This document shows positions 17,053-61,550 of a DNA stretch of 64,000 nt, one piece after another; the first letter of the stretch is position 1, and each line of letters begins with the position of its first letter. A model generated the notes under the pieces. It was not told the DNA's origin. It searched no databases and worked only from the letters and a program-made list of their open reading frames with translations. The position numbers and the translations under genes are program-made. The DNA is from Hypomesus transpacificus (Eukaryota; Chordata; Actinopteri; Osmeriformes; Osmeridae), in NCBI RefSeq assembly GCF_021917145.1, contig NC_061073.1, forward strand, positions 15,535,507-15,599,506, written 5' to 3'.

Positions 17053-26888
<9,836 letters not shown>

Positions 26889-30008: not shown

Positions 30009-33000
30009 TCAAGGCACAAGAACAACACGCATGGTGTTGGTGTAACCAGAACCTGGGCGCCAGCCGGTCACAACAATAACCACATCACCAGACTTGAAGA
30101 ACATGCGGTGCTTGCCTGAGGAGCGGAAAGAAAAAGGATGTTAATGTCCGGACCAGTGTCGGTTAGTGATACTCTCCTATTAAAACATCAGATAACATAG
30201 GGTTTTAGTACTTACCCATCTCCATGGCAAAGTTGACGCGGAGGTCGACATCCTCAGCCCAGACATCATTGGCAGGCTTGGTGTACATCACGGGGTAGAT
30301 GCCGCGGTACAAGTGGGACTGGCGGGCAGTCTGACCGCAACGGGTCACAGCAATGATGGGGGCGCGGGGCCTGTACCTGGACAGCAGCTGAGCAGATCTG
30401 TAGACGCACAACCAGGGGGTTACACACACACACTGGGGCTAAGCGAGAGTGCAAATACCAAAAAATAACAATTATTGAGTTATTGAATTGTGGAACTGTT
30501 GAATGCGAATTTCTAGACCTGGAACATGACAGACTTTTGACAGTGCGTCTGTTAAAAAAGCATTACATTTGACCAGAACGTGAGTACAGTGGTTTAAAGC
30601 ATGCTCGCTCTCTGACATATGTCTCTGAAGGGGAGGGAGAGGAATGAGAAGTTAAAATTAACCTCTGCAAATGTCAGCCCCCCCCCCCCCTTCCCAGCTA
30701 AAAGGTTGGGTGTACATGTTAGATTGACCCTGGTGAAAGGTGGCAGGTTTGGCATGACTTGGCTTGGGCCCTGGTGTAAGTGGAGAGGGGAAAACGCTGT
30801 ATGGGTCCCACCTGCCAGACTTGGTGAGCACGATGATGGCGCTGGCGCAGCACTTGAAGGATGCCTCGACGGCTCCGATGGCGACGGACTCGGTGGGGTC
30901 ACGGGTCAGGTGAGACGTGCGACGAAGCTCCTCAAACATCTGCCTGTGGAACATGGCAGCCTCGGCCTCGCGGGCGATCTGAGCGCGTGCGGACAGACGG
31001 AGAAACAGACGTCACATTCCGGTCGTTCACTTCAACATTTTTTGCGATTAACATTTCACCGTTGCATGCAAAGGTCAGTTTCAAAAGGGCCGATAAGTTA
31101 CGCATCATGCCACATAACAGACACTGAAGGAAGCGGGTAAGAAAAACAGTGGAGGAATATATTCTGCAGGACTGATGGGGTTAGTCTCTGTGTGCGTACT
31201 GTACCTGAGAGGACTCTGAGGTTTGTTGCTAAACAACAGCAGCTCCCTAGTAGCTGTGCTGAAAACCAGAAGACATCCAGAGGCTTGGAGTGTTGGGGTG
31301 CAGGTCCTCAGACACATGCTGCTAGGACAATCTAACCACATGGGTTGACAGCACAATGCAGAGGAGTGGGCCAGATGCAAAAGGGTTGATTATAGGTAGA
31401 GGAGAGGGTTGGGGGTGGAGTTACAGGCAGGTGCACAAGTGAGGTAAAAACTCATTGTAAAAGTAGTTAGTTGATCATGCCAAAAACACACAACAGGCTA
31501 CTTTATGTTCATTTTCTGTACATACTATATGTCTACATTGTCTGTCATTGATATGTTGATATGATTTCATTGATGGCATTAGTTGTAGCTTGACATGTTG
31601 TCTTTGTAATTAGAGTTTTACAACCTGACAAAGACACTCAACAGACTGGTCACTACCACACTGAATCCATGCTCCAAAAAACGCCACTTTTGAGTATGTG
31701 AGCCGAGATTCACCCTGTGCTGTGTGTGGACAGACTCACCCTGTGCTGTGTGCGGACAGACTCACCCTGTGCGGACAGACTTACCCTATGCTGTGTGTGG
31801 ACAGACTCACCCTATGCCGTGTGTGGACAGACTCACCCTATGCTCTGTGTGGACAGACTCACCCTGTGCTGTATGTGGACAGACTCACCCTATGCTGTGT
31901 GTGGACAGACTCACCCTATGCTGTGTGGACAGACTCACACTGTGCTGTGTGTGGACAGACTCACCCTATGCTGTGTGTGGACAGACTCACCCTATGCTGT
32001 GTGGACAGACTCACACTGTGCTGTGTGTGGACAGACTCACCCTATGCTGTGTGGACAGACTCACCCTGTGCTGTGTGTGGACAGACTCACCCTGTGCTGT
32101 GTGGACAGACTCACCCTGTGCTGTGTGTGGACAGACTCACCCTGTGCTGTGTGCGGACAGCCTCCAGTGGGTACTCTCCCTTGGCGGTCTCCCCGCTCAG
32201 CATGATGCAGTCAGCACCGTCCAGCACGGCGTTGGCCACGTCGCTGCCCTCAGCGCGGGTGGGGCGGGGCTTCTTGATCATGCTTTCCAGCATCTGCCCA
32301 ACCACAACCAGTAGCACAGGGTCATTAAAATAGGACTTCACTTTGATTGGGTTTCACAGAATCTATTATTTTCTATTTTATGGTGCACTAATGATGTCAC
32401 AGACCTGTGTAGCGCAGGTGATGGGCTTGCCCATCCTGTTGCTGCGGCCAATCATCATCTTCTGGGCCAGGAAGACCTTCTCTGTGGGGATCTCGATACC
32501 CAGGTCACCACGGGCAACCATGATGCCATCGCTAGCCTCCAGAATCTCATCAAACCTACCAGGAAGCGGGATTACTTAATTGACATTATTAGGAACCATA
32601 AACCATAGGGAGTCAGATGGCTGAGCGGTGAGGGAGTCGGGCTAGTAATCAGAAGGTTGCCAGATCGATTCCCCGCCGCGCCACATGATGTTGTGTCCTT
32701 GGGCAAGGCACTTCGTTGGGAAACGAAGTCCTTGGGCAAACTTACTTACTGTAAGTCGCTCTGGATAAGAGCGTCTGCCAAATGACTAAAATGTAAATGT
32801 AAAATAAACAAAAAGCACTCACAGAACAAGATGATGAAAACGCTCCCAGGCTACAGATAACACTCACCTGCGCACTCCCTCAAGGTTCTCCACCTTGCTG
32901 ATGATCTTGATGTCTTTGCCCTTCTCACCCAGCACCTTCCTGACAGCGTGCACGTCGGCGGCCTTGCGAATGAAAGAGGCGAAGACCATGTCGACGCCCT

Positions 33001-44600: not shown

Positions 44601-47036
44601 GTAACTTCTTGGCAAATGACACCAAATCTGAACCTGGTTCTTCTGTCTCTGTGTCTCCAGCCAGCCGTTTGCACCAGGGAGCTGTGCGTGTTTTCCTTTT
44701 ACACTTTGGGAGTGATGTCTGGGGCTGCCGAGGAGGGGGCCACGGGAGTGGAGGTGGTGGACCTGCTGGTGGCCATGTGCAGGGCGGCGCTCGAATCCTC
44801 ACGCAAGAGCATCATCTTTGAGCCGTACCCTTCTGTGGTTGATCCTTGCAACCCTAAGACTCTGGCTTTCAGTCCCAAGGTACTGAGGAAATGTGTGCAT
44901 TTCAGTTGGAACTGAACTGTTTTCAAATCCCTCAAAACATCATTTAAAAAATAACGGAATATTACACCATTTCTGTTGCAGAGGAAGAGTTATGAAAGGT
45001 TGCAAAAAGCCTTGGACAGCGTCATGTCCATCAGGACGATGACGCAGGTGACTAAAGTAAACATTTGATCCTACACACCTACCCATATTGTCTATCAATA
45101 TATTATCAATTATGATTAACATCGGGTTGTTTCTAATGTGATGGATTGGATTTAGTTTTTTAAATGATTATCAATTTCCAGGGTCCCTATTCTGAAATCA
45201 AGAAGCAGATGGACAAAACCGATCCCCTTGCACACCCCTTACTGCAGTGGTAAGACAGCAACTCAATCCACGTCTCTTTGCATTTCACACTAAGACCGCA
45301 CACACTCTGACCTGTCTGTTTGTATGTTTGATACCAGGATTATATCAAGCAACAGATCCCATATTGTCAAGCTGCCACTAAACAGGGTACGAGAATATAG
45401 CTGTTTCTGTGACTAGTCCATAGTTTGTGATTGTGGGCTAACTGATAGCGGCTAGTTCTAGAAACCAGGCTCCTCTAAAAGGGCTATTTGACTTGACCTT
45501 GATCCATGTCACTCTTGCCAACCTTGTCTCTCCCTGTATTTCTCATTCTTGTGCAACAGTAACAGAAACTAGTGTCCCTCTTTGTTGTATACCAGCAGCT
45601 GCAGTTCATGCACACACCACATCAGTTCCTGCTCATCAGCAGTCCACCTGCCAAAGAGGCTCATTTCCAAGCAGCCAGGAAGCTCCATGGCAGCACTTTT
45701 GCCTTTCAGTGAGTGAAATTACATTTTACACAAACACACACACTTCTCGATTTTCATGATCATTGTCTTGATTTCTCTCCTCAGTGGTTCACACATAGAA
45801 AACTGGCACTCCATCCTCAGAAATGGACTGGTTAATGCCTCCTACACAAAGCTACAGGTTTGTTGCAATCAATATAACAGCATTGGGCAAATTAAATGGA
45901 GTTAATAACTTGGGAATAGTTTACCAAAATGGTAAACTTGACTCTGCTCTGCACTATTGAAGCTACATGGAGCTGCGTATGGGAAGGGCATCTACTTGAG
46001 TCCTATCTCAAGCATATCTTTTGGATATTCAGGTAATGATACCAAAACAGTTTGTTTATACATAGCAGTCCCAGTTCAGGTTTAAACTAATATAATGTTA
46101 GTTACGGTCACCCATCCTTATCCTTGTGTCTAACTGGTTTATCCCTATAACATGATGTTTTTGTTGATAATCAGGGATGGGTAAAGGTCAACACCAGATT
46201 CCCTCCAAAGAAGAGCTGATCAAACAATGTAACTGTCTGAACACAGTAGAACAGGTACAGTGTTGCACTTACAAATACTTGAAGCAAATACAATTTAAGA
46301 CAGAATTGTGGCATATCTTATGGCACTTTTGAGTTGTCATTATTTTCCCCTTTGTTCTTTCAGGAATATTCAGGACAGGCCAGATTTCTCCAGAGCAGAA
46401 ATTTAAACTGCATAGCACTTTGCGAAGGTAAACGATCTGTTTTCTGCTAGACGTTAACATCAGATGATGACAGAGCTAAGTAGCTATTGACTATCAATTT
46501 GGTGATTTGTGTTCCCTCAGTCATAACATCAAAGGACCTTCTAAGACATGGAAACATCTGGGTGTGCCCCACACCAGACCATGTGTGCACACGCTTCTTT
46601 TTTGTGTAAGTACAGCACAGCAGAGAACACAAGCTAAACCTGTGTAGTGACGTACACTGTAGTTCTTAAGTCAACATTGGACATTGGTCTCAACCCAACC
46701 CTGAGTCTGACCCCTCCGAACAACATATTTACATTTACATTGTCATGTAGCAGACGCTCTTATCCAGAGCGACTTACAGTAAGTAGGGACAGTCCCCCGA
46801 GGCAAGTAGGATAAAGTGCCTTGCCCAAGGACACAACGCCATTTTGCACGGCCAGGAATCAAACCGGCAACCTTCTGAGAATTACCCCAATTCCATAACT
46901 ATACCATCTGACCCCCCCCCCACTATATTTCTCTGATAGATACGAGAACGGCCAAGTGGGAGATGCTAACATCAACACCCAAGATGTCGAGATCCAAAAG
47001 GAGATTTTACAAGTGACCGGGACAACAAGCTGCTAA
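41639..47036 (+). CDS. parp6: PARP6, mono-ADP-ribosyltransferase family protein
   Basis: Twenty-one coding segments: 41639-41641, 42010-42087, 42566-42660, 42812-42872, 43033-43123, 43213-43279, 43411-43560, 43745-43883, 44037-44168, 44445-44540, 44661-44879, 44982-45047, 45182-45249, 45338-45386, 45596-45708, 45785-45857, 45963-46032, 46175-46254, 46364-46427, 46521-46605 and 46940-47036. They encode 631 residues; human PARP6 has 630. The N-terminal half matches PARP6 (acidic QSDEDSDLEEF, EYGTIDDVDVDL, RLRFSLSHYLDGP). The middle contains the near-invariant AVCTRELCVFSFYTLGVMSG and RKSIIFEPYPSVVDP. The C-terminal catalytic domain has the donor-binding histidine in HGSHIENWHSILRNGL, tyrosine in HGAAYGKGIYLSP, and ends FVYENGQVGDANINTQ. 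The usual third-position glutamate of poly-ADP-ribosylating PARPs does not line up here, in keeping with mono-ADP-ribosylation. Sequence and linkage to pkm favour PARP6 over PARP8. Confidence 0.96.
43565..43680. repeat. Short diverged tandem repeats in a parp6 intron
   Basis: Three imperfect units of the type 'taccacctagcagtacatac' (ccctac-tttactacc-tagcagtacac) lie just after a parp6 exon. The array is small and degenerate. Confidence 0.5.
46731..46915 (-). mobile_element. tRNA-derived SINE in the last parp6 intron, reversed
   Basis: On the minus strand this reads as the same SINE family: a degraded head, a ggtttgattcctggccgtg B-box region, the 'tgtccttgggcaaggcactt' body and the 'actgtaagtcgctctggata' tail. 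It lies wholly within the 46606-46939 intron. It is more diverged than the copies at 32609 and 40032. Confidence 0.85.
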
Positions 47037-59800: not shown

Positions 59801-61550
59801 GAATGTCCCTGTACTTACTGTAAGTCGCTCTGGATAAGAGCGTCTGCTATATGTCGAATGTAAAAATGTATTGATTGACTTGCATGCTCTGTGACCTCCT
59901 CGGATGGTCGTGGCCCCTCTCAGTGTTGGGATGCGGGTGTTCAGGCATGCTAGAGGAAACGACATGGAGTTAACAGGGCCACCAGTCTCTCGAGAACAGA
60001 CTGAGTCGGTAGTATAAAACTCCAACAGTCCTAGTTAATGCTCTCTGGACAGACCGCTGACTGCTTGTTGCTAGTGTGCGATAGATCCAAAGACAGAAAT
60101 AGTGCGTGAGTGTTGGTGTCGCCACTCACAGCACGTGTGTTCATCTCCCACGTCTAAATTAAGTCTTCTTCTAGTATGGGTATGTGTAGATAGATAAGTG
60201 CGTATGTAAAAATTTGGCTGTACAGTATCTGTTCCCTCGTGGTCCATGCAGGTATATGAAGTACCTGTACCCGTTTGAGTGTGACAAGAAGGGGCTGAGC
60301 TCCCCAGGCGAGCTGCAGGCTGCCATCGACGGGAACCGGCGCGAGGGCCGGAGGGCCAGCTTCAACAGCAGCCTGTTCCACTACTCGCCATCGCAGGCCT
60401 CGGCCCCCCACTCCCTCCTCTCCTCGCCCAAGATCCACACGCACTCCTCTGGACACAACGGCCTGCACTCGTCCCCCATCCAGGCCCTGAAGAGGAGAAC
60501 AGGTTTGTGGCCCGTCCTGTCGAGGACAGGAAGCGTGGGACACTCGGGGAGTGTTGCTTTCCTGTTGACGTTTGAGGTTATTATATCAAATGAGTCTGTT
60601 TTTAGGCTTGGCATGCATGGCATCTGTGATATCAGCAGTCCCCCCACAAGTGTGCGCACCGCGTGACTAAATGCGACATCGGCGTTCAGGTCGTTGCGCC
60701 CTCTGCTGTCGTAAATGCATTACGACATCCAGGACGTCCATGTGACAGCGGGGCAAGTCGTACAAGGACACCGTCCTTCATCGGATGACAGGAGTTGAAT
60801 CAAAGTCCCCCTCCCTCCCTCCCCTTGTGCCTCCTCAGATGACGCGAGTGGCATGCTGCCCAGCAGGCTCCCCATGGCGCTGGGGCTTGGGCAGCAGCAG
60901 ATGGCCCAGGCTGCCACCCTGGAACACCTGAGGGAGAGGCTGGAGAGGGCCGCGGGGGGCGAGGGGCCAGACAGGAAGATTGCGCGGCTGGCAGAGGAGC
61001 AGCAGCAGCGTCTGATCCAGCAGGCCTTCCAGCAGAACCTGCTGGCCATGGCCTCTCACTTCAACCCTGTGAAGCAGCCAGCAGCAACCAACAACGACCA
61101 TGGTCAGTACCCTGCGATGGTGCAGCGCAATGCTGCACCTAATGGAGATGGAAACTGGAGTGGTTGTGATGCAGGTTATTAAAATTGCCCTTCCTCTTCC
61201 CGCCCCCCCCCAGAGAGCAAACAAGATCTGTCTCTGAGTATTTCCACCAACGGGGCTGCTAGCATCAGTGTGTCAGTGGAGGTGAATGGCACTCTTTACT
61301 CAGGTGGGTCATCTTTGTTCTCTCTACATGGGTTTGTTGTCCCCATGGTGACCCCCCCCCCCCCCCCCCACACTCACACACACAAACACATTTATCGATC
61401 TGCTCTCTAGGAATGCTGTATGCCCAGAAGTCCTCTGCAGCCTCGTTGGTGTCCATGACAACAGCTGGTCAGAGTGGGTTTGGCAGCATGTCGTCGACAC
61501 ACAGCCCGACCTCCTCCTCATCTCCCTCGTCCTCAAAGGGTCCCAACTGA
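53804..61550 (+). CDS. arid3b: ARID3B-type AT-rich-interaction-domain transcription factor
   Basis: Nine exons (53804-53830, 54578-55162, 57953-58030, 58144-58216, 59458-59641, 60252-60502, 60839-61102, 61214-61303, 61411-61550) give 563 residues. The N-terminal half has a Gln/Glu-rich helical segment (MEHLQRQQEAKLHLEREEK), an acidic stretch at about 54861-54947, and a possible sumoylation site (FKQE). The extended ARID follows (about 230-330): LYELDGDPNRKEFLDELF, TPVNRIPIMAKQVLDLYKLY, KKIWREITKGLNLPTSITSA, then YMKYLYPFECDKKGL. Exons 7-9 hold the REKLES oligomerisation region (LEHLRERLER, RLIQQAFQQNLLAMA, SISVSVEVNGTLYSGMLYAQK). The extra exon WAEENEEQ...PSRDFAK before LYELDGDP matches ARID3B rather than ARID3A, and ARID3B shares the human 15q24 neighbourhood. 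The protein binds AT-rich DNA in the nucleus. Two in-frame ATGs (53804, 53807) are adjacent. Confidence 0.94.
53831..54577 (+). other. arid3b: arid3b intron 1
   Basis: This intron separates the eight- or nine-residue start exon from the large acidic exon. It is AT-rich and unique, with nothing further recognised. Confidence 0.75.
55163..57952 (+). other. arid3b: arid3b intron 2, largest intron, with C-rich tracts
   Basis: This 2.8-kb intron contains C runs at about 55443-55456 and 56789-56811, and others near 57410 and 57624. No coding sequence or transposon was recognised. Stretches near 55500-55720 and 57000-57200 look less degenerate than their surroundings and could be conserved non-coding elements, but I cannot test this. 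Confidence 0.6.
58217..59457 (+). other. arid3b: arid3b intron 4
   Basis: This intron splits the ARID coding region. It has a C run near 58419-58435. The 59220-59400 part, just before the acceptor, reads as unusually information-rich unique sequence. No gene was recognised. Confidence 0.6.
59642..60251 (+). other. arid3b: arid3b intron 5 with a SINE-like element
   Basis: The first third of this intron is occupied by a rearranged SINE copy with a long G run. The remainder is unique sequence. Confidence 0.65.
59698..59870 (+). mobile_element. SINE with a different head and an expanded G tract
   Basis: The tail ('actgtaagtcgctctggata', then 'agagcgtctgc') is the shared fish SINE tail. The head (cccggtgactgagcaggcag ... 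gcccaggttcgggg) retains A-box- and B-box-like segments but differs from the other copies. A run of about 22 G at 59768-59789 follows the B-box region, then a short GGAA repeat. Confidence 0.7.
60503..60838 (+). other. arid3b: arid3b intron 6
   Basis: This short intron ends in a CT-rich tract before the exon carrying the REKLES part. Nothing else was seen. Confidence 0.7.

Follow-up and report, generated by a model that had tools for sequence, protein, structure and literature searches.

When an exon is followed by 17 further copies of its own 5' splice site, which of the 18 donors is used, and does the array matter to the gene? This question is raised by a pyruvate kinase (pkm) gene of Hypomesus transpacificus, which lies in the stretch of 64,000 nucleotides analysed here (the window). 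On the minus strand, at 31706–32164, 18 splice donors are arranged in tandem, and the first of them is the end of pkm exon 8.

Anatomy of the donor array

Exon 8 (153 nt) occupies 32141..32293 on the minus strand. It ends with ...GTC CGC ACA CAG CAC AGG, followed by GTGAGT. Based on the reading frame and the alignment to human PKM, this GTGAGT (32135..32140, first G at 32140) is the canonical donor of exon 8, donor 1. The initial annotation proposed that this proximal site gives an exon of 153 nt, and the exon boundaries agree; the next exon starts at 30978. The first unit of the array carries the canonical donor of the adjoining exon, and the last 20 nt of exon 8 are the coding part of unit 1. 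Each array unit corresponds to this 20-nt coding tail joined to the intron's first 6 nt, CTGTCC(G/A)CAC..CAGCA(C/T)AGG + GTGAGT.

Tandem Repeats Finder reports the array at 31706–32164 with a period of 26, 18.2 copies and a score of 687; periods of 50 and 76 are also reported. About 18 copies of the exon 8 donor junction, in units of 24–26 bp, had been described. Splitting the array at its donors yields exactly 18 of them, exon 8's own and 17 extra. The range of unit length applies to 17 of the 18 units: in the exon-tail register, 13 units are 26 bp and four are 24 bp, while one is 19 bp. The 17 extra donors lie at 31708..32114 (minus strand). The first G is at 32114, 32090, 32064, 32040, 32014, 31990, 31964, 31938, and 31914 for donors 2–10, and at 31888, 31862, 31836, 31810, 31784, 31765, 31739, and 31713 for donors 11–18. 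As expected from the description of AGG|GTGAGT or near matches, all 17 read GT[GA]A[GA]T, and AGG|GTRAGT is kept in 14 of them. The GTAAG unit is real; it had been placed near 31770 but corresponds to donor 15, at 31784.

The donors are very similar to one another. The 9-base sequence is AGG|GTGAGT in 14 of 18 donors and AGG|GTAAGT in one (donor 15). Three donors are weaker: donors 6 and 9 with AGT|GTGAGT, and the last donor (18) with AGG|GTGAAT. Fifteen of the 18 score as strong as donor 1 or slightly better, on a donor frequency table rather than MaxEntScan, so that only comparison between sites is meaningful. The earlier view of decoys of similar strength is thus right for most of the donors. 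Among the seven scored donors of this gene (exons 3–9, with exons 2 and 10 left out), the exon 8 donor ranks second when scored with the frequency table; U1 duplex energy places it fourth. Because 14 donors are identical 9-mers, site strength alone cannot pick donor 1.

The donor array is not a product of chance. Within 481 nt around the array, 18 donor-like sites equal or exceed the weakest array donor in score. Shuffling this stretch 500 times with dinucleotides approximately preserved (shuffles reaching 95% of the length were accepted) gave a mean of 3.05 such sites and a maximum of 8. The rest of intron 8 (30979..31705, 727 nt, minus strand) contains none.

Relationships among the units suggest how the array arose. 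Units 6–8 (31959..32034) and units 9–11 (31883..31958) are identical blocks of 76 bp, and units 2–3 differ from units 4–5 at 1 base in 50. Unit 17 (31734..31759) is the same as unit 1 at 26 of 26 bases. A change from CCG to CCA is common to 15 of the 17 intronic units, while exon 8 keeps CCG. Duplication and unequal exchange would leave such a pattern. From this anatomy it can be inferred that the minisatellite was seeded by a tandem duplication of the exon 8/intron 8 junction (20-nt tail plus GTGAGT), and that the array then grew and was partly homogenised by block exchange. An origin from a dispersed element carrying the unit is unsupported by an exact-match search. In the assembly (437,198,280 bases in 376 contigs), the 23-mer spanning the exon tail and donor is seen as an exact match only twice, at units 1 and 17, both within the array.

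One further resemblance is seen outside the array. The 12-mer GTCTGTCCGCAC, which starts array units 16 and 17, recurs at 30987–30998 (minus strand), just upstream of the exon 9 acceptor. Of 2000 approximate shuffles of the remaining intron, 13 have any 12-mer in common with the array. This extra copy may be due to chance or be a trace of exchange.

The host gene

The peptides of exons 8 and 9 match PKM in the Protein Data Bank. Pfam assigns three of four PKM pieces to PK or PK_C; the exon 9 piece, taken alone, has no match. The coding exon next to exon 8 (30812..30978, minus strand; 167 nt as judged by its reading frame and donor) is of the 9/10 type and is the only copy found in the window. 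A tblastn search with it over the window gives one match at 8.7e-35, and the next best has E = 1.0. This single exon sits between exon 8 and the following coding exon. For exons 8 and 9 together (107 aa), the best Protein Data Bank rows reach 186 bits, the printed row being of the M2 kind, against about 170 bits for M1-type rows, which we take to be rabbit M1. The 9/10-type exon shares 42 of 56 residues with the printed human M2 row, and its first part (38 aa) fits M1-type rows best, at 57 versus 55 bits. It starts M1-like and ends M2-like.

A zebrafish study (PMC6177464, 2018) describes teleost pkmb as an 11-exon gene that clusters with PKM2 and lacks alternative splicing; the exon pair is present in zebrafish pkma. 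As in teleost pkmb, and unlike in the alternatively spliced zebrafish pkma, there is a single 9/10-type exon here. With one such exon in the window the gene looks like pkmb, which is its most likely identity on present sequence evidence, and no choice between PKM1 and PKM2 exons is at stake. A role of the array in the PKM1/PKM2 switch is rejected, as the window yielded no second exon of this type. The donor array seen here goes unmentioned in the excerpted text of PMC6177464.

Exon 8 differs from the printed human PKM row at 3 of 51 residues. At 32141–32160 (minus strand) its final residues are VRTQHR against VRMQHL in human PKM, and the M-to-T and L-to-R changes both fall within the repeated 20 nt. 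Two of three differences in the last 7 of 51 codons have a hypergeometric chance of 0.046, a post hoc value against human only. Since most of each unit is coding sequence, it could be speculated that the array and the exon tail swap sequence by minisatellite conversion and that the last seven codons, one of them partial, co-evolve with the repeat; the coding sequence of a core glycolytic enzyme would then be evolving together with an intronic repeat. Such co-evolution is doubtful, and the CCG retained in the exon, against CCA in most intronic units, counts against frequent exchange.

Several other features are seen in the window. A SINE-like element is present at 32609–32800 (plus strand) in the intron before exon 7, and a similar translated stretch is found at about 40030. 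Its head is tRNA-like by reading of the sequence rather than by a tRNA scan, and at 32738–32791 it has a UnaL2 LINE 3' tail (Rfam, 64.4 bits). Rfam finds further UnaL2 tails at 46737–46790 (minus strand) and 59807–59860 (plus strand). Twenty bases after the latter, at 59880–60030 (plus strand), there is an Rfam match to the H/ACA snoRNA U109 (46.7 bits, cutoff 43). The end of a convergent neighbour gene lies at 24770–26888 (plus strand), presumably the end of an HCN-type channel gene. Its piece at 24770–25027 has a weak cNMP-binding match (21.4 bits, short of the Pfam cutoff, 27.5), and Pfam gives no match for the piece at 25197–26888.

Consequences of distal donor use

Use of donor 1 keeps the reading frame. 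Reading past it gives VSLSTHSTG and then TGA, as the initial annotation stated; however, this TGA (nucleotides 181–183 from the exon 8 start) falls in the donor 2 hexamer, so splicing at donor 2 escapes it. The donor 2 isoform is instead shifted in frame by the added 26 nt, and its stop ends 73 nt into the next exon, 94 nt before the end of that exon. Donors 3–18, which are 16 of the 17 distal donors, include the TGA, and the whole 167-nt exon and later junctions lie downstream of it; counting this next exon, the stop is at least 187 nt before a later exon junction. An mRNA whose stop precedes a later exon junction by more than 50 nt is a target of nonsense-mediated decay (NMD), and by this 50-nt rule all 17 distal donors are predicted to give a premature stop in an NMD-competent position. 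None of the 17 gives a full-length frame. The claim that any distal donor truncates the protein is therefore correct, by frameshift for donor 2 and by TGA for the others. The units might be considered for recursive splicing, but most of them carry AG|G|GT rather than AG|GT.

What could favour donor 1 among such equal sites? Its enforcement by position or exonic signals, as the initial annotation inferred, is plausible. A stable RNA structure hiding the distal donors is unlikely. Exon 8 plus the array (594 nt) has a fold z-score of +6.1, and not one of 100 shuffles folds less well. Regarding trans-acting factors, SRSF1 is cited as favouring the intron-proximal (downstream) one of competing donors, and hnRNP A1 the intron-distal one (PMC5585400). 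In the same source, a DOK7 minigene preferred the downstream donor, which is also the stronger one.

A close guide to what may happen at such an array is the VNTR in intron 18 of human ABCA7, whose 25-bp unit starts at the exon 18 donor (PMC5954066, 2018). There the first donor is the canonical one, and splicing also occurs at the next unit's donor, with a shift in frame. Two frameshifting ABCA7 isoforms are reported, at 14 ± 6% and 2 ± 1%, both unaffected by VNTR size (PMC5954066). From the order of listing in the text, in our reading, the value of 2 ± 1% is that of one-unit (+25) retention.

The probable reading of the locus is a minisatellite born from the exon junction, in which donor 1 is dominant, distal donors are used little, and the array is tolerated. 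Donor 1 would serve nearly all productive mRNA, presumably because it ends a 153-nt exon with its own enhancers. By analogy with ABCA7, a small share of splicing would use distal donors, above all donor 2, and the resulting frameshifted or stop-containing mRNAs would be cleared by NMD. The array would be tolerated and not selected. If it has any functional effect, this is more likely to come from its length, through recognition of the next exon or transcript level, than from an ordered ladder of decoys. Against this reading, given the work on competing donors (PMC5585400), equal donors and an unusually unstructured stretch, leakage could exceed 2%, more than in ABCA7.

Rather unlikely, although the best of the alternatives, is an effect of array length like that in ABCA7, in which longer arrays would weaken recognition of the 167-nt exon or lower the transcript level. 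Skipping of this exon would shift the frame (167 mod 3 = 2). The geometry is that of ABCA7, where longer VNTRs are associated with reduced expression and next-exon skipping (PMC5954066), and the exact duplication of the 76-bp block suggests a recent change in copy number here. The variation in unit number between individuals that the initial annotation expected is plausible. However, ABCA7 arrays span 298 to 10,678 bp (PMC5954066), and the 459 bp seen here is close to the lower limit.

It is still less probable that the donors form a decoy ladder for regulated unproductive splicing, tuning the level of pkmb through NMD. The predicted NMD-competent stops from every distal donor and the many donors as strong as donor 1 would suit such a function. 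Yet an out-of-frame intronic donor yields the same outcome by default, and the constancy of extra-unit retention across ABCA7 array sizes (PMC5954066) weighs against the decoy-ladder regulation first proposed. CACA occurs 51 times in the 459 nt of the array against 4 times in the other 727 nt of the intron. These CA-rich runs overlap the units, and CA-rich RNA is bound by hnRNP L, which can repress splicing (review, PMC8150589). Binding of hnRNP L to the runs is a guess from the motif and this review, and motif enrichment follows trivially from the repeat.

The weakest alternative, an assembly artefact or a wrong copy number, might be considered since the array comes from a single assembly and the length of tandem arrays is often wrong in assemblies, but with 12 distinct sequences among the 18 units, a clean exon at one border, unique intron at the other, and no N run in the window, it is highly improbable.

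Comparison with known minisatellite donors

A minisatellite that holds splice donors is of a kind already known from human genes, although the arrangement is unusual. Searches of open-access papers found no fish donor array, and none is seen in the excerpted text of a sea bream paper with intronic minisatellites (PMC3045353).

The gene offers a natural test of 5' splice-site choice, with 18 competing donors, 14 of them identical 9-mers, and similar upstream sequence. The array donors differ mainly in position, and junction reads would measure positional preference without a designed construct. If the array varies within this fish, it would offer an animal system in which to follow the effect of such VNTRs on splicing.

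Another human precedent is the minisatellite of IFI6 (G1P3, 6-16), in which two downstream repeat units serve as donors (PMC4526556; the source is Turri et al. 1995, Nucleic Acids Res 23:1854, as cited in PMC4526556 and PMC2572611). In both cases a minisatellite supplies several splice donors. The alternative donors of IFI6 are said to give protein isoforms, whereas no distal donor of the fish array leads to a full-length frame.

The near-exact precedent is ABCA7. Both arrays adjoin an exon, carry its canonical donor in the first unit, and shift the frame when the donor of the next unit is used. The unit is 25 bp in ABCA7 and 26 bp here, and the human reference has 23.7 units against 18 here. 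The ABCA7 VNTR starts at GT, and the excerpted text of PMC5954066 describes no coding sequence in its unit, whereas in the fish array the copied coding tail makes up 20 of the 26 nt. Both polymorphism and splicing were measured for ABCA7, while the fish array is known from the sequence of one assembly. The likeness suggests that an arrangement of the ABCA7 type occurs outside humans, in a glycolytic gene.
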